Shown here: in pieces, positions 9,423 to 18,289 of the stretch
Layout of the letters: each line of letters begins with the position of its first letter
Position numbering within the stretch: the stretch's first letter is position 1
From: Bdellovibrionales bacterium
GTDB lineage: Bacteria > Bdellovibrionota > Bdellovibrionia > Bdellovibrionales > UBA1609
DNA length: 64,000 bases
Direction: 5' to 3'
NCBI GenBank assembly: GCA_027459485.1
Contig: DAIDIG010000007.1
Span: forward strand, 1 to 64,000
Position numbers and translations under genes: made by a program
The notes under the pieces: model-generated
Seen by the model: only the letters and a program-made list of their open reading frames with translations
Told to the model about the DNA's origin: nothing
The model's database searches: none

Positions 9423-9869
9423 GTGCTTAATCCCCAACAAAATGAAGTCCGTGATCTTACGCGAATCAGCAATAAAATTGAATTGATCGCGGATACCGAA
9501 GACGATCTTCTACTCATTGATCGAATTGATAACATCTTGAATTTAGCTGAAGATCAGTTCCCGATATTTACTCTGGCTAAGAACAAGGCTCGTTTTTTGC
9601 GTATGCTGACCTGGTACAAACAAAAAGAAGCCTGGTTGGATGTAGCCCCTTTGTCTGGCGTCAGTAAGCTATTCAAGCAGCAGACTAAAGAATTAGAAGG
9701 CATTCGCGCCAATAAGCTCGACTATGAAATGGAACTCGAAACTGGCACATTGACCCCGAGCCAGCGCTCATACCGTCGGGATGAGCTTAAAATGTGCAAA
9801 GTCCAAGAAAAAATGGCCGTGCACTTGATCGCCAAAATGCAGGTTAAGATCAAGTCGGGACGCCGTTAA
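9423..9869 (+). CDS. hypothetical helical protein
   Basis: A 148-residue cytoplasmic protein that I do not recognise. It starts with GTG behind a textbook ribosome binding site (AGGAGG, 9413-9418). It is charged, predicted mostly helical, with no Cys pair, no signal and no membrane segment. It diverges from the metalloprotease-like gene, and the Fis-type regulator gene follows 170 bp downstream. The strong ribosome binding site suggests abundant production. Confidence 0.75.
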   Translation: MLNPQQNEVRDLTRISNKIELIADTEDDLLLIDRIDNILNLAEDQFPIFTLAKNKARFLRMLTWYKQKEAWLDVAPLSGVSKLFKQQTKELEGIRANKLDYEMELETGTLTPSQRSYRRDELKMCKVQEKMAVHLIAKMQVKIKSGRR

Positions 9870-10041
9870 AAATTACGTTGTTTCAAAAGGTTACGTCCGT
9901 CCACCCCAAAAACGGCAATTTTTGCCTAATGATCTCGTTATGATCCGCCGATAACTATTTGTAAGCCAATAATTGGTTTGTTTTAAGACAAATCGGAACC
10001 AAGGCGCCGGCGTATCGCGCGGCTCTGGAAGGGGGATCAAT

Positions 10042-10488
10042 ATGGGACGTAAAGTGATAATCGTAAGCGACGATAACGATTTCGTCGTGCAGGCGAAGTC
10101 TTTTTGCGAGGGCAAAGGCGGCTGGGTGAAGGTTATGTCACCGTCGGAGTGGGCCGAACAATCGGGACGATCGGGATTCACCTGGACGGCAATGGGTGAA
10201 GTTCCACCTTTAGTTTCGGGTTCACAAACTAATGAAGGCGCTAAGATTTTGCAGTTTCCACAAGGCGGTGGCGGCACAAGCAGCCACACTCATGTTGTCG
10301 GTGGCAAAGTTCAGACAATTTATCAGATGGAAAGTGTGGCCATTCAAAGCGCCATTGAAAAATATCGCGGCAATTTGACCGAAGCGGCAAAAGCTCTCGG
10401 TATCGGCCGAGCGACACTCTACAGAAAAGTAAAACTCTACAATATCGATCCGACCCAAGCCCGTCGGCACAACAAAAAAGCGGCCTAA
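10042..10488 (+). CDS. Fis-family helix-turn-helix DNA-binding protein
   Basis: A 148-residue protein. The ATG at 10042 follows GGAAGGGGGATCAAT and is preferred over the upstream in-frame start at 9973. The C-terminal region (residues ~98-135, AIEKYRGNLTEAAKALGIGRATLYRKVK) is a Fis-type helix-turn-helix (HTH_8), as at the end of NtrC-family activators. The N-terminal ~45 residues (KVIIVSDDNDF) resemble the start of a receiver domain, but the rest of that domain is absent. No AAA+ domain is present, so it may act as a small nucleoid or regulatory protein. Confidence 0.8.
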   Translation: MGRKVIIVSDDNDFVVQAKSFCEGKGGWVKVMSPSEWAEQSGRSGFTWTAMGEVPPLVSGSQTNEGAKILQFPQGGGGTSSHTHVVGGKVQTIYQMESVAIQSAIEKYRGNLTEAAKALGIGRATLYRKVKLYNIDPTQARRHNKKAA

Positions 10489-11619: not shown

Positions 11620-12294
11620 ATGGCCGATCAAGATTCTAAAAACGACACAGATGGTAAAGTGGTGGAATTTCCGCTTCATCGGGCGAGAAAGCCGGGCGAA
11701 GTTGCGCCGAAAAAAGACGGCGAATCGGCCGAGCCCAAAACGCCCGAACAGAAGCGGCGCGCATTGGTAGTCTCGCTATTATCAGCTTTCGTCGTGGCGA
11801 TGTTTTTCTCGCACCATTCAGGCAGGGGCCGATCACCTCAATCAATTGATACGCGGCCCGACTTAGCCTCTGATATCAAGACAGCCGAACATCTGAATGA
11901 GACATCATTGCGCGAGCCGGCAAGCGGTGGGCACATCCCCACGGCTCTCGACGACTTACGATTTGGCACTTTGAAAAACCGCTACGTGATCAAATGCCGA
12001 TTTACTGAAAACTGTAGCTCGGCGGACGCACTGAAATCTGTCGCTTTCAATGCGGGCGCCAATGGCAAAGCGGTCGTGATCGGTGACTCCGAGCAGTTTT
12101 TAAAGAAATACGGCGAACTGTTTCGCGTTCCATTCGATGATGTACAGGGCAGCCATTTTCATGATGCCAATCACTCGTATGAAGTATTCATGCTCTTACG
12201 CAATGCTCAGGTCGTTGCGCGGGTGAATTTTACCTACTTTCACGACGGCACTCTCGAATCTATCAACATCGAACACGTCAAAAACGACGATTGA
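11620..12294 (+). CDS. bitopic membrane protein, first gene of rhomboid operon
   Basis: A 224-residue protein that I do not recognise. The N-terminal ~45 residues are charged and Lys/Glu/Pro rich, a single membrane segment follows (about 48-64, ALVVSLLSAFVVAMFF), then a ~160-residue domain with two Cys (KCRFTENC). The topology suggests a cytoplasmic tail and an external domain. It is followed 9 bp later by the RDD protein gene and then by a rhomboid protease gene, so it is a candidate partner or substrate of that protease. This is inference. Confidence 0.7.
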   Translation: MADQDSKNDTDGKVVEFPLHRARKPGEVAPKKDGESAEPKTPEQKRRALVVSLLSAFVVAMFFSHHSGRGRSPQSIDTRPDLASDIKTAEHLNETSLREPASGGHIPTALDDLRFGTLKNRYVIKCRFTENCSSADALKSVAFNAGANGKAVVIGDSEQFLKKYGELFRVPFDDVQGSHFHDANHSYEVFMLLRNAQVVARVNFTYFHDGTLESINIEHVKNDD

Positions 12295-12303
12295 TGTCTG
12301 ACT

Positions 12304-14298
12304 ATGGTGATTCGCGATGAGGACAGTTCGCCGACCCCGCCCAAAGATAAGACGAATCTGAACCCGAGCTTCGACCATTCGGTTGCCCAGCCGCTCGATC
12401 GCCTCGCCGCCAGCGTTATCGATTATGCGATCGTATTGTTGCCGGTCATATATTTGGTTCTTGCACCTTTTCAGCGCGCTCTTAAAGTATCGGCCATTTT
12501 TGACTCGGCGGTCGCGAGCAGTTGGGAGGTCCCCCTCATCACGGCCTTCGCCGCGTTTGTCGTTATTTTCATGATTTTTCTCTACCAGTGTCTCATGGTG
12601 TGGCGCTACGGAGCGACGGTCGGTAAACTTTTGCTGGGTTTGCGAGTTCGCTCGTTGTGGGGGCCTGTTAAGCCGAGCTTCGGTCAATCCGCTCTTCGAT
12701 CCTTTTTTTGGATTTTCGATGTCTCTTGTATCGGCATGCCATTGCTCGCCATACTCGGTGACGAGTTTCGTCGCCCACTTCACGATCGTGTTGCCGACAC
12801 CCTGGTCGTAAACATCAAAAGCGCAACGGCCACTGCGCCGAGCCGCAATTTTCGCGAAGTGGCGCTCGTGCGCGGCGTATTTTGGGGTATGGCCGGCATA
12901 TTGGCTCTGGTTTTGATTTCGCTGGGGTTTTCAATATTTCGTCACTACGGCAGCCAAGATGCCCTTATCGCACAGCTCGAATCTCAAAACATTTTGTGCT
13001 CGCAAGTCTCGGATGCGCAGTCCGAATGGCCCGACGAAAATGGACATCCTCCGAGCCGGTTGAGTGTCGCGATGGCACTTTATTCGGCGGGAGTGGTCGA
13101 CCCACATTGCCTGCAAGCCGAAGTTGAAAATTTGCGCTTTTCATCAAGTGAGGCGCCGCTGCTTAACTTGGCGAAGTCGTTCGTTTATGCTGACACTCCC
13201 GAACTCTCCGATCAATATCTCGCGCGGGTCTGCGCACTGGCGCCGAAAACATTGGAATGCGCGATGAGCCACTGGATCGACCGCGTGACCGGCGGCGACT
13301 GGAACAAGGTAAAAGACGATCTCGCAAGCTTGAGCAAGACGAAAAAAATCTACCCCTACATATGGGCTGTGCGCGAGTCGATGGAACACAACAATTACTC
13401 GCTCGCGCTCAAATACTTGAACAAGTTGCCGGATGTACAAGCGCTGAGTGATTTTTCAACTCCGCTGCGTGTGAAGTTGTTATGGGCACTGGGGCGCGCG
13501 ACCGAATCTCGGGGCGCGGCCGCGGCGGCTTATTCATCGCTCAACGACGATGCGCGCTTCGAAGTGGCCGGCTTTATGTGCTACGAAAATATTTGGTCGT
13601 CGTGCGATCAGCTCAAGAGCCGGTCTTGCCAAACGTTTTTACAAATCACATCTCAATCAAGCGAATCGCTCGCCTCAAATTCGGCTTCGCTCGCCTATTT
13701 GCGAGCGTACGAATGCAAGAAAAACCCGCACGGCGCAGGAGCCGTCGATTACGCAGGGCTTTACGACACTCCGTTGAGCGACGATGTTAAAGTGCTTGTG
13801 CGGGCGATGAGTGAGCCGGGGGCGCATGCGCTGCAGGCCGTGCGGAGAGATCAGACACTCGCTGCCGAGGTGGTGGCCGAAGCCACTCGACGTTGGATCA
13901 ATCGCATATCTGGAGCATCGGAGCTCGAACGTGCTCAAAAAATGTGGCAAGAAGAAATTAAATCGCGGCACCTTTCGCTCGCGTGGCGAAAAGTCGGTGT
14001 CGCGCTTTTCAATAAATACTACCAATTCCACGATTACGCGATGAGCGCACGCGTGGGGAGTGAGTTGTTATCAACCGGTTCGGCGTACAATCGGCACCTG
14101 CTGCCGTTACAAATCATTTCGCTCGATCGATCTCATCAAATCGGGCCAGCGCGTGCGGAACTCGCCGTCTATTTGGCGAAATATCCATCTCCCCTTTTTG
14201 CGGGCGATTCTCGCCAGCCGGCGAGCGTCGATAAGTTTGCCGAGGTTGCCAGAGAGCTCATAAGTCTGAGGTCCGGCGGGGCGCGAGGCGGCCGATGA
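12304..14298 (+). CDS. RDD-domain membrane protein with long helical-repeat tail
   Basis: A 664-residue protein. Residues ~30-190 form an RDD domain: LDRLAASVIDYAIVLLP, then GATVGKLLLGLRV and the terminal RPLHDRVADTLVV. A further membrane segment at ~205-225 leads to ~440 residues of helical, TPR- or Sel1-like sequence with several Cys. RDD proteins are often called transporters, but many have no proven role; the large tail is unusual. Its last codons overlap the rhomboid start (ATGA), so the two are translationally coupled. Confidence 0.75.
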   Translation: MVIRDEDSSPTPPKDKTNLNPSFDHSVAQPLDRLAASVIDYAIVLLPVIYLVLAPFQRALKVSAIFDSAVASSWEVPLITAFAAFVVIFMIFLYQCLMVWRYGATVGKLLLGLRVRSLWGPVKPSFGQSALRSFFWIFDVSCIGMPLLAILGDEFRRPLHDRVADTLVVNIKSATATAPSRNFREVALVRGVFWGMAGILALVLISLGFSIFRHYGSQDALIAQLESQNILCSQVSDAQSEWPDENGHPPSRLSVAMALYSAGVVDPHCLQAEVENLRFSSSEAPLLNLAKSFVYADTPELSDQYLARVCALAPKTLECAMSHWIDRVTGGDWNKVKDDLASLSKTKKIYPYIWAVRESMEHNNYSLALKYLNKLPDVQALSDFSTPLRVKLLWALGRATESRGAAAAAYSSLNDDARFEVAGFMCYENIWSSCDQLKSRSCQTFLQITSQSSESLASNSASLAYLRAYECKKNPHGAGAVDYAGLYDTPLSDDVKVLVRAMSEPGAHALQAVRRDQTLAAEVVAEATRRWINRISGASELERAQKMWQEEIKSRHLSLAWRKVGVALFNKYYQFHDYAMSARVGSELLSTGSAYNRHLLPLQIISLDRSHQIGPARAELAVYLAKYPSPLFAGDSRQPASVDKFAEVARELISLRSGGARGGR

Positions 14299-15290
14299 TT
14301 TTTCCGATACTGAGCGGATTTCAATCTATTTTTCGAGCTCCCGTGACGTGGTGTTTGTTCTTTTTAAATTTTGCCGTGTTCGTTTTGACATTCACGCAGG
14401 CGAAGCAATCGCAAGTGGCACTCGATAATTATTTGCGTGACTCGACCTTCAGCGAAACCCAGGGGCTCGTGTTCGCTCGCTACGTACAAAAACACAAAGA
14501 CCGCTATCTCGCCAGTGTTGTCCAGCTCGCGAATCAATCGGTTCAACCGTCAGGGCTCGATCGCCGCGATTTGATGGGCGGCATCGCTTTGCGCGACAAT
14601 GAATTCATCAATCACTCCGACAACCTGTCAGATAACATCGGTGACCCGGTCGCCTTTAACTGGTGGCGCAATCAACTTGCGAGATTCAAAACAGTCCGTG
14701 ACTCCGACCCGAGTTATGAGCTCGGTGTCACCACGCAAAATTGCGATCTCGAACATTGGATCACCTATCAGTTTGCCCATAGCGGTATTGCGCACTTTAC
14801 GGGCAACATGCTTTTTTTTCTGATTTTCGCTTGTAGTCTTGAATCTGTGATCGGCGGTCTCGGGGTATTGGCGCTGTATTTGTTATGTGGCATTGCGGCC
14901 GCCATTTTCTTCACGGCCATGAATGACACGTCGGCCATTCCCCTGATCGGTGCGAGCGGTGCGATCAGCGGATTGGTTGCGTTTTTTTGTGTTTTGTTTT
15001 GGCGTCGGGGTGTTCGCTACGTTTACTTTTTGTTCATCCCCAAAAAGGGATACACCGGCCTTGTATATTTACCGGCGTGGATCACCATGGTGCTCTGGTT
15101 ATTGTCGGATTTAGCCGGGCTCTGGTCGACTCCACCTGAACTTGGGGGCATTGCGTACTCGGCTCATCTCGGCGGCGAGCTTTGCGGCGCTCTTGCGGCG
15201 CTCATCTTCATTGCCATCCGCAAGTACCGCGGGCTGCCGATTCTATCGGAGCGGTACTCGTTTGAGGCGGCGTCGACCACTTCGACTTAA
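14295..15290 (+). CDS. rhomboid family intramembrane serine protease
   Basis: A 331-residue polytopic membrane protease. The first membrane segment is followed by a ~115-residue hydrophilic loop. The rhomboid core then shows HSGIAHFTGNMLFF (Asn171 of the oxyanion hole), the nucleophile Ser221 in GASGAISG, and the catalytic His291 in SAHLGGELCG. Rhomboids cut single-pass membrane proteins within the membrane. It overlaps the upstream RDD gene by 4 bp. The long first loop is larger than in GlpG-type enzymes. Confidence 0.9.
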   Translation: MIFPILSGFQSIFRAPVTWCLFFLNFAVFVLTFTQAKQSQVALDNYLRDSTFSETQGLVFARYVQKHKDRYLASVVQLANQSVQPSGLDRRDLMGGIALRDNEFINHSDNLSDNIGDPVAFNWWRNQLARFKTVRDSDPSYELGVTTQNCDLEHWITYQFAHSGIAHFTGNMLFFLIFACSLESVIGGLGVLALYLLCGIAAAIFFTAMNDTSAIPLIGASGAISGLVAFFCVLFWRRGVRYVYFLFIPKKGYTGLVYLPAWITMVLWLLSDLAGLWSTPPELGGIAYSAHLGGELCGALAALIFIAIRKYRGLPILSERYSFEAASTTST

Positions 15291-15295
15291 CACGC

Positions 15296-18289
15296 CTATT
15301 TCGGAGCAAAACCGCGTCGAATCGTATTTTCGGTCACCACCCGCGCATCCATGTACTGGATAAGATATTCGGGGCCACCGGCCTTGCTGCCAAGTCCTGA
15401 CATTTTGAATCCACCAAACGGATGCCGCCCGACGAGTGAGCCGGTGATACCGCGGTTGATGTAGAGATTGCCGCACTGAAACTCCGCCCGCACTTTCGCA
15501 ATGTTGGCAGGTGAGCGCGAATAAAGCCCGCCGGTGAGTGCGAAGGCCGTGCCATTGGCAATATCGATCGCGTCGTCGAGATCGCGCGCTTTGATGACCG
15601 CGAGCACGGGGCCGAAAATTTCTTCTTGAGCTAAATCAGAGTTGGCATCGACATCCGCGAAAATGTGCGGTCCGATGAAATGGCCTCCAGTTGGCGCATC
15701 ACCTTGGTAAACAAGCCGAGCGTGAAGCGGATCATTCGAAAATTTCTCGATCACCCGACGAATGCGCGACGCGGCCTCTTCGTCGACAATCGGCCCCATA
15801 TACGCGTGCGGATCAGCGGCATCTCTGACGTAGATACTTTTGGCCGCCTCAACTAAACGATGCACGAATCGATCGTAATTTTCTTCTAGAACGATCGCCC
15901 GACTGCAAGCTGAACATTTCTGGCCTTGAAATCCGAATGCGGAATACAAGACCCCGACAACTGCCTCGTCAAGGTCGGCGTCGGAGTCGACGATAATCGC
16001 GTTTTTGCCGCCCATTTCGATAATCGCGCGTTTCACGAACTTTTGGCCGGGATGCACAACGGCGGCTTGTTTAACAATTTCAAGGCCGACCGTGCGCGAA
16101 CCGGTAAAGCTAATCGTGCGAATAGCGGGGTGAGACACAAGATACGCGCCGATGTCTTCGCCAAGACCCGGCAAAAATGAAACCACACCCTTCGGGCAAC
16201 CGGCTTCTAGTAAGTGGCGCATAAGTCGCGCGGCAATGAGCGAACTTTGCTCGGCGGGTTTCATGATGCATGTATTGCCGGTCACAATCGAGGCCACGAC
16301 CGTGCCGCAAAGAATCGCGAGCGGAAAGTTCCACGGAGCCAGTACAAGAGTGGGGCCGCGCGGAACATGCTCGAGACGGCTGTCTTCGCCTAAAACAAAA
16401 CTCATTCGGGTTCCGGCGCTGAGCCGTTCGGCCTCACGGGCGTAATATTCGCAAAAATCGATGGCTTCGCACACATCGCCGTCGGCTTCTGACCAAGTTT
16501 TACCGACTTCTAAAACTTCAAGAGCTATCAGCGAAAAACGCTCGCGCCGAAAGATTTCGGCGAGATTTCGTAAAACTCGTGCCCGTTCATTCGCCGCAGT
16601 CGAGCGCCACGACGAAAAATGTTTAACCGCAACTTCAACCGCGAGGTCGGCTTCTTCGCTGCCGGCCAATTCGATGACTCCGACAGTTTCATTGAGCGAT
16701 GACGGATTTTCGCGTTTCAAAGTCGCAACAGATTTGGGTGAAATCTCTTTGCCTTCTATGATTGGGCGCGCGATTCGTTTGGGAGATTGAGCTCGGGTCA
16801 TTGTCAGCGCTTCGTCCATTTGCTGGCGATTTTTTGCGATCGTCCAATCGAGCATCGGTTCGTTGTAAAAGCGGCCGGGGTCGCGCTCTGGCTTATCTTT
16901 CGAAACCACCATAATGTCGGCCGGGTTTTGCAATAATTTTTGGGATGAAGCGTTTTCGGCAAATTTAGAACGCAAGAACGACTCGTTTGATGTGTTTTCG
17001 AGAAGGCGTCTTACGAGATACGCCATGCCGGGGATCAACTCTCCGATTGTTGCATATTCGCGAACCCGGTAGCCTTCTTTGACCAGCGTTTTTTTTATCG
17101 GATCGGCCATCCCGTACAACATTTGGATTTCAAATGCGCGAGAATCGACGCCCAACCGCTTGGCCATGACGATCGTCGAAGCCATCGATCGCACATTGTG
17201 CGTGCCCGCGGCTAGGCGCACCCATTTGTGATTCGTCAGCATGCGCTCGGCACAACGCTCGTAATTGTGGTCGCTTTCGTGCTTATTTGTAAATACGGGG
17301 ATCGGCCAATCGGCCTGGTCGCTCCATAAGACCTCTTGATCCCAATACGCGCCCTTCACGAGGCGAATTGTTATGGGAGTGCCACGCCGTTTAGCGAATG
17401 CGATCAAATTTTCGGTGTCGGCGAGGGCTGAGCGCAGATACGCCTGTACGACGATGCCGAAATGCGGGTACGAACGGAATTCGTCCTCGAGAAGCAATTC
17501 TTGAAACACTTGAAGGGTCATGTCTTTGAAGCGAAACTGCTCCATGTCGACATTGACGAATACGCCGCGTTCGCGCGCGAGCGAAAATATGGGGCGCAGT
17601 CGCTCTTTCAAAATGCCCACCGAGTCATCCCAAGCTTTTTCTGAAACTTGCGAATAAAGCGCGGTGAGTTTGACCGAAATATTCACTTTCGGGATCGCCC
17701 CTTGATCATCCGTGTCGATTTGGGGGTTTGTCCTCCAAGTTTCGGCGTCTCGACATAGTTTTTGGATGAGATCCATGTAGCGCGTTTGATATTCGAGAGC
17801 TTCTTTTTCAGACAAAGTCGCTTCGCCGAGAAGGTCGGCGGTGAAGCAGAGAGAATTCTCGCGCGCCTTTCTGAGAAGCGGCAGCGCCGCATCGGGGTTT
17901 TCGCCTGTGATGAACATCTTCGCCATCTGCGTGACATTTTTTCGAATCGCGCCAGCCATCAAGCCAGGGGCGAGTGAACCCACACCCAAACCAAAACTCA
18001 AAATTCCGGCGTCGGCGCCGAGGTCGGCGAAATATTCTTTCAGATGGCGGGCGACTTCCGAGCTCGACGTCAGGTACGGCAGCACATCCACGAAACGAAA
18101 CATGCGCGTCTTGAACTGTTCATTTTTCATGCTCCAGTCCATGATTCGGCCGTACCACCAGTCTTTATTGAAGATTGATGACGAATCGTTTTCGATCATT
18201 TGAAAAATACGTTCACCAACTTGTAGAACTTCGGCTTCAAAATCGCGGGTGTTTACGGCGGGGGCGGCTGTTTCAATTTCGTTGTTCAT
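15296..18289 (-). CDS. putA: bifunctional proline dehydrogenase / L-glutamate-gamma-semialdehyde dehydrogenase
   Basis: A 997-residue enzyme that oxidises proline to glutamate in two steps. The N-terminal half is the FAD-binding proline dehydrogenase barrel (VSVKLTALYSQ, VNVDMEQFRF, IRLVKGAYWD, LAAGTHN). The C-terminal half is the NAD-dependent aldehyde dehydrogenase (FTGSRTVG, catalytic Glu in IEMGGKNA, catalytic Cys in GQKCSACSR). There is no N-terminal ribbon-helix-helix, so unlike E. coli PutA it should not repress its own gene. The start overlaps the upstream gene by 17 bp. Confidence 0.95.
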   Translation of the reverse strand: MNNEIETAAPAVNTRDFEAEVLQVGERIFQMIENDSSSIFNKDWWYGRIMDWSMKNEQFKTRMFRFVDVLPYLTSSSEVARHLKEYFADLGADAGILSFGLGVGSLAPGLMAGAIRKNVTQMAKMFITGENPDAALPLLRKARENSLCFTADLLGEATLSEKEALEYQTRYMDLIQKLCRDAETWRTNPQIDTDDQGAIPKVNISVKLTALYSQVSEKAWDDSVGILKERLRPIFSLARERGVFVNVDMEQFRFKDMTLQVFQELLLEDEFRSYPHFGIVVQAYLRSALADTENLIAFAKRRGTPITIRLVKGAYWDQEVLWSDQADWPIPVFTNKHESDHNYERCAERMLTNHKWVRLAAGTHNVRSMASTIVMAKRLGVDSRAFEIQMLYGMADPIKKTLVKEGYRVREYATIGELIPGMAYLVRRLLENTSNESFLRSKFAENASSQKLLQNPADIMVVSKDKPERDPGRFYNEPMLDWTIAKNRQQMDEALTMTRAQSPKRIARPIIEGKEISPKSVATLKRENPSSLNETVGVIELAGSEEADLAVEVAVKHFSSWRSTAANERARVLRNLAEIFRRERFSLIALEVLEVGKTWSEADGDVCEAIDFCEYYAREAERLSAGTRMSFVLGEDSRLEHVPRGPTLVLAPWNFPLAILCGTVVASIVTGNTCIMKPAEQSSLIAARLMRHLLEAGCPKGVVSFLPGLGEDIGAYLVSHPAIRTISFTGSRTVGLEIVKQAAVVHPGQKFVKRAIIEMGGKNAIIVDSDADLDEAVVGVLYSAFGFQGQKCSACSRAIVLEENYDRFVHRLVEAAKSIYVRDAADPHAYMGPIVDEEAASRIRRVIEKFSNDPLHARLVYQGDAPTGGHFIGPHIFADVDANSDLAQEEIFGPVLAVIKARDLDDAIDIANGTAFALTGGLYSRSPANIAKVRAEFQCGNLYINRGITGSLVGRHPFGGFKMSGLGSKAGGPEYLIQYMDARVVTENTIRRGFAPK

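Follow-up and report, generated by a model that had tools for sequence, protein, structure and literature searches.

The 64,000-nucleotide stretch analysed here, called the window below (positions 1 to 64,000 of contig DAIDIG010000007.1, assembly GCA_027459485.1, from a Bdellovibrionales bacterium), carries a tightly packed operon of three genes encoding a single-pass membrane protein (P1), an RDD membrane protein with a long tail (P2) and a rhomboid protease (P3). We interpret the operon as encoding an RDD–rhomboid complex, with P2 as the dedicated partner of P3 and with P1 as a client or further partner, a reading to which we assign a probability of roughly 0.6. The parts of this reading differ in firmness: P2 and P3 very probably work together, P1 on balance acts with them, and it is doubtful that P1 is actually cut by P3. 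The features are as follows.

11620..12294 (+), P1, 224 residues, bitopic inner-membrane protein (open reading frame (ORF) call and hydropathy)
12304..14298 (+), P2, 664 residues, RDD membrane protein with a Cys-rich, TPR-like tail (ORF call and Pfam)
14295..15290 (+), P3, 331 residues, rhomboid protease with six transmembrane (TM) helices (ORF call and Pfam)
14295..14298 (+), stop–start overlap of P2 and P3, ATGA, identical in 55 of 63 loci
9973..10488 (+), Fis-type helix-turn-helix gene (HTH_8), upstream neighbour in 46 of 67 loci

The tie between P2 and P3 extends well beyond the window. In 35 genomes of the phylum, holding 72 RDD and 65 rhomboid genes, 14 RDD–rhomboid pairs (less than 2.5 kb apart) are observed against 0.33 expected on the assumption of random gene positions. 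All 14 are on the same strand, and nine lie outside the order Bdellovibrionales, these nine coming from related families and so not representing nine independent events. The paired genes usually overlap by 4–20 bases and occur in both arrangements, with RDD first (loci L216, L218 and L220–L222) or rhomboid first (L215, L217 and L219, plus second copies in the order members L207–L209). In another family of the phylum, one chain of 529 residues (L214:611-2200, − strand) comprises Rhomboid (92–244), a weak TPR_2 match (263–292, E 0.0026) and RDD (391–517); parts that are separate in the window are therefore a single protein elsewhere. Phylum-wide pairing in both orders, together with this fusion, ties P2 strongly to P3.

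These same data bear on the possibility that P2 is instead a client, that is, an RDD transporter of the Na+/H+ antiporter type whose amount is set by the co-translated rhomboid. An RDD protein of Halobacillus has been reported to be an antiporter (PMC5996927), the Bacillus subtilis rhomboid YqgP cleaves the transporter MgtE (PMC7231995), and P2 keeps the Arg and Asp positions of RDD (R33 and D40 invariant, D161 in 85% and D165 in 74%). We nevertheless consider this unlikely, as the rhomboid–TPR–RDD fusion and the repeated gene overlap suggest subunits rather than an enzyme and its victim, and the large periplasmic tail suits a binding role.

Some of the paired loci have features of their own. 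In L216, L218, L220, L221 and L222 the RDD–rhomboid pair is preceded by a protein of ~93–111 residues and another of 221–462 residues, of which, in L216, the former is a weak match to Sigma70_r4_2 and the latter is without a Pfam match; this operon type is possibly a regulated-proteolysis circuit. A further tail type is seen at L209:5325-6998 (+), where an RDD protein of 557 residues with a long non-TPR tail lies directly behind a rhomboid gene. A literature search with most subscription journals outside its reach found nothing relevant on RDD together with rhomboid, and a prior description is possible. For rhomboids in Bdellovibrio it found just a table entry (Bd2426, a rhomboid-like protein, which we do not equate with P3), and the main text of the transposon sequencing (Tn-seq) paper mentions neither rhomboid nor RDD.

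Within the order, the trio as a whole is conserved. Among 79 relatives, several of them incomplete metagenome-assembled genomes in which some absences are assembly gaps, a single-sequence query matched P2 in 63 and a profile search matched P1 in 69. When the trio was rebuilt with iterated profiles in 54 fetched loci, P1 was found in 50, P2 in 54 and P3 in 51, the gaps being mostly contig ends. P2 and P3 are adjacent on the same strand in essentially every P2-bearing genome with intact contigs, and in 55 of 63 loci the two genes overlap by exactly 4 bp. P1 and P2 are adjacent and in the same direction in nearly all loci; the exceptions are divergent (L127, L136), displaced (L147) or, in at least one genome (G153, L185/L186), on another contig. 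Bdellovibrio bacteriovorus strain kdesi (L176) is among the named records with the trio. Sampling across the phylum placed P1 in 53 members of the order and in 0 of 138 other genomes, the sole marginal match outside containing three stops; P2 with its tail is likewise in none of those 138, where the RDD domain alone was matched. The pairwise-identity matrices of P1, P2 and P3 correlate at 0.66–0.76 with one another and at 0.27–0.46 with that of the adjacent PutA, a descriptive comparison rather than a formal test of co-evolution. An earlier, sequence-only reading of the window had proposed that the three genes may form one system, which a gene order kept in relatives would support; both the trio kept across the order, B. 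bacteriovorus included, and the recurrent, even fused, RDD–rhomboid pairing support that proposal.

Every sequence test applied identifies P3 as a rhomboid, which in the favoured reading would be an active protease. Rhomboid (PF01694) matches residues 152–306 with E 2.3e-23 (83.4 bits, Pfam cut-off 22.6), and hydropathy gives six TM helices with ~120 residues between TM1 and TM2, that is, a long periplasmic loop 1. The catalytic features are in place, with GxS in TM4, His in TM6 and HxxxN (167/171) in TM2, and all 52 sequences compared keep Ser221, His291, His167 and Asn171. The best curated model for the P3 core is the rhombosortase TIGR03902, whose 30.5 bits fall below the equivalog cut-off of 84, and the GlpG score (NF008155 / TIGR04239) is 12.1 bits against a cut-off of 335. 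A PADLOC search of the proteins gave no match to anti-phage defence families, and the sole match in PHROGs was that of a PHROG of unknown function to the rhomboid core. Elsewhere in the same genome, on contig C6, a protein of 566 residues (L213:3919-5619, −) has a weak rhomboid match at its C-terminus (E 1.4e-5) without an obvious GxSG, preceded by a large soluble region, and is perhaps a pseudoprotease.

P2 belongs to the RDD family (PF06271, residues 27–164, E 1.1e-17, 65 bits against a Pfam cut-off of 24.1) and has four hydrophobic segments by hydropathy (~31–56, 76–94, 134–152 and 191–209). R33, D40, G107, C232, C269 and C310 are invariant in 45 sequences. The tail is wholly helical in the AlphaFold2 model (mean predicted local distance difference test (pLDDT) 88.7), and the P2 family profile matches solved TPR chains of the Protein Data Bank (PDB) at E 5.5e-21, which indicates a TPR superhelix; the window P2 sequence by itself has no Pfam TPR match. 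LbcA is among the fold matches, weakly (E 3e-3). The positive-inside rule predicts a periplasmic location for the P2 tail, conserved cysteines included, as well as for the C-terminal domain of P1 and the P3 active site. ORFs, Pfam and hydropathy thus bear out the composition and packing first described for the operon: a single-TM protein of 224 residues, an RDD protein of 664 residues with a helical tail and an intact rhomboid of 331 residues, separated by a 9-bp gap and joined by a 4-bp overlap.

P1 has a single TM helix at 48–66 (hydropathy) in N-in orientation, with a periplasmic C-terminal alpha/beta domain predicted by AlphaFold2 at high pLDDT over ~122–219, and R71 and Y122 are invariant in 38 sequences. 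Searches of Pfam, NCBIfam, PHROGs and PADLOC assigned it to no family (the best NCBIfam score was far below cut-off), and a fold search against the PDB gave no match at E<=0.001; the best, at E 0.036, were spurious thioesterases, and no fold is assigned. Most P1 proteins also carry a cytoplasmic N-terminal motif near their start, N-[VI]-[VI]-x-F-P, which reads VVEFP in the window (11620-11690).

The best-conserved positions of P1 form a motif, R-x-x-A-S, just outside the membrane, often with a second copy ~25–30 residues on; in the window the juxtamembrane copies are R71SPQS, a variant, and R98EPAS. When all gapped three-residue patterns were counted and compared with shuffles, R..AS was the top pattern in the P1 juxtamembrane region (47 of 51 sequences, shuffle mean 2.4) and again in the P2 C-terminal tail (41 of 49, shuffle mean 2.0). 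Among 15 neighbourhood gene families it is enriched only in P1 (93% versus 8% expected) and P2 (84% versus 19%). The last 70 residues of P2 are nearly unalignable save for R-x-[P/I/L]-A-S (R637, A640, S641), which in the window is R637QPAS. The sequence-only reading had passed over this common motif, along with the ancestral upstream PDZ/S41 protease and the Fis-type HTH gene.

Several observations weigh against the complex as we picture it. First, conserved neighbours are found outside the trio as well, namely the HTH gene and, in 47 of 67 loci, a convergent putA; since this wider block is syntenic too, gene order by itself supports P1 only weakly. The same neighbours are what would speak for genes without any functional link, merely co-inherited in an ancient syntenic block. 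That account is improbable given the highly conserved 4-bp overlap, the independent RDD–rhomboid pairings of other families in reversed order or fused, the motif common to P1 and P2 and a co-divergence stronger within the trio than with putA, and for P2 and P3 it is already largely contradicted. Second, one 99%-complete genome (G007) has P2 and P3 with P1 undetectable. Third, Bdellovibrio P2 is only ~405–415 residues long and lacks most of the TPR-like tail, so the TPR adaptor arm is not universal. Fourth, eight genomes without P2 and P3 (G006, G017, G021, G026, G032, G034, G039, G066) retain P1 together with its motif, and P1 is therefore not merely a rhomboid substrate.

This last point bears on the idea that P1 is the physiological substrate, cut by P3 at its TM helix, close to it or within RxxAS (GIA|S-like) so that the periplasmic domain is freed. 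P1 is indeed bitopic and co-encoded, its motif is strongly conserved, and R-G-[IVL]-A-S-[VI], with a small residue and a hydrophobic one two positions later, is reminiscent of the known rhomboid consensus. However, the first motif mostly lies 8–26 residues past the TM end, far for a typical rhomboid cut, and an equal motif stands at the P2 C-terminus, ~430 residues from any TM. Both the independent retention of P1 and how far the motif lies from the membrane speak against reading the motif as a simple rhomboid site, and we regard a substrate role as a tentative possibility. Of the two roles suggested from the sequence for the co-encoded proteins, substrate or adaptor, the former is thus weakened for P1, with P1 and its motif outliving P2 and the dedicated P3; the adaptor idea fits P2 better than P1. 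In the reduced genomes of L195 and L196 (~1.2–1.3 Mb), P1 stands alone with three copies of R-[GS]-[LV]-A-S, beside genes that by sequence appearance are aconitase-like and nucleoside phosphorylase-like.

What reads R-x-x-A-S probably lies outside the trio, because P1 keeps the motif without P2 and P3, and Bdellovibrio P2 keeps it without most of the TPR-like part. Accordingly, the TPR tail and the dedicated P3 were both rejected as the motif partner, as was the S41/PDZ peptidase, which is absent from the window's genus; a signal-peptidase site (GIA|S) was rejected as too far from the TM helix. A rhombosortase-like sorting system with RxxAS as the sorting tag would account for a motif common to two proteins, and TIGR03902 is nearer to P3 than the GlpG models are. 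We think this very improbable: the score is far below cut-off, the motif is kept where P3 is absent, and P1 and P2, the proteins of the genome scanned for it, are without the C-terminal tripartite signal of motif, TM and basic residues that marks GlyGly-CTERM substrates, the P1 TM being N-terminal and P2 ending in a soluble tail.

In the RDD–rhomboid complex that we favour, the operon would encode a protease module of the inner membrane that is turned towards the periplasm, with P3 as its active protease and P2 as its membrane partner, the RDD helices lying beside the rhomboid in the bilayer. P2 may recruit, gate or stabilize P3, and its Cys-rich, TPR-like tail in the periplasm could recruit or position clients or regulate access. 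P1 would be co-expressed and its periplasmic part handled by the P2–P3 pair, be it as a client, as a regulated partner or as a substrate, and it would also work without them; R-x-x-A-S in P1 and at the P2 C-terminus could be a docking motif for one common site. The physical complex, the adaptor and client roles and the docking are what we infer here. More speculatively, RDD proteins of the phylum may be dedicated rhomboid subunits, forming a holoenzyme that is sometimes one polypeptide, with R-x-x-A-S as a new periplasmic recognition motif that addresses the system and its clients in the Bdellovibrio order; this combined proposal is a tentative one.

Of the neighbouring genes, the HTH_8 gene is, by association, a possible regulator of the trio. 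In 31 of 67 loci a co-directional gene for a PDZ-containing S41 peptidase separates it from the trio (e.g. L182:6924-8129, +); the peptidase has invariant SH...S..E positions without the usual CTP lysine motif, and its Ser-His, Ser and Glu positions presumably resemble a tricorn-type tetrad. The window genome holds no close orthologue (best E 4.8e-11, versus <1e-60 for orthologues). The peptidase is an ancestral upstream gene, lost in the window's genus and dispensable, and its presence hints that many members have a second protease step in the periplasm. In the window putA (15296-18289, −) converges on the rhomboid gene with no obvious functional link, and a protein of 148 residues without a Pfam match, encoded upstream of the HTH_8 gene (9423-9869, +), is conserved in 37 of 67 loci.

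Only a minority of bacterial rhomboids and hardly any RDD proteins have a known function, and the recurrent pair and its natural fusion give RDD a testable role, while this group of rhomboids gains a candidate regulatory subunit. Since almost every member of the order has the system, the tractable predator B. bacteriovorus among them, its substrates should be findable in that species, and the common R-x-x-A-S predicts a specific receptor.

Among known systems, rhombosortase with GlyGly-CTERM (TIGR03902) supplies the NCBIfam model closest to the P3 core, but the score is below 84, the gene context is other and P1 and P2 lack GlyGly-CTERM. Rhomboid YqgP (GluP) of B. subtilis is both a protease and an adaptor for FtsH and recruits through extramembrane domains (PMC7231995). 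The likeness lies in a rhomboid acting with an adaptor function and in recruitment by such domains; the extra domains of YqgP, however, are in the rhomboid itself, whereas in the trio a second protein, the RDD partner, bears the TPR-like tail, loop 1 of P3 spans ~120 residues and an adjoining FtsH gene was not seen. YqgP also carries TPR. In Pseudomonas aeruginosa, LbcA is a TPR protein that activates the periplasmic S41 protease CtpA (PMC11021448), comparable in its TPR superhelix beside a protease and in the S41/PDZ peptidase gene that adjoins many of the trios. LbcA is an outer-membrane lipoprotein, however, the trio protease is a rhomboid and the window's genome lacks the S41 orthologue; moreover, neither YqgP nor LbcA–CtpA has RDD. 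With the RDD family (PF06271), e.g. the Halobacillus antiporter, P2 shares the domain and its conserved Arg and Asp, but P2 differs in its long periplasmic Cys-rich/TPR tail and in a gene that overlaps that of a rhomboid.

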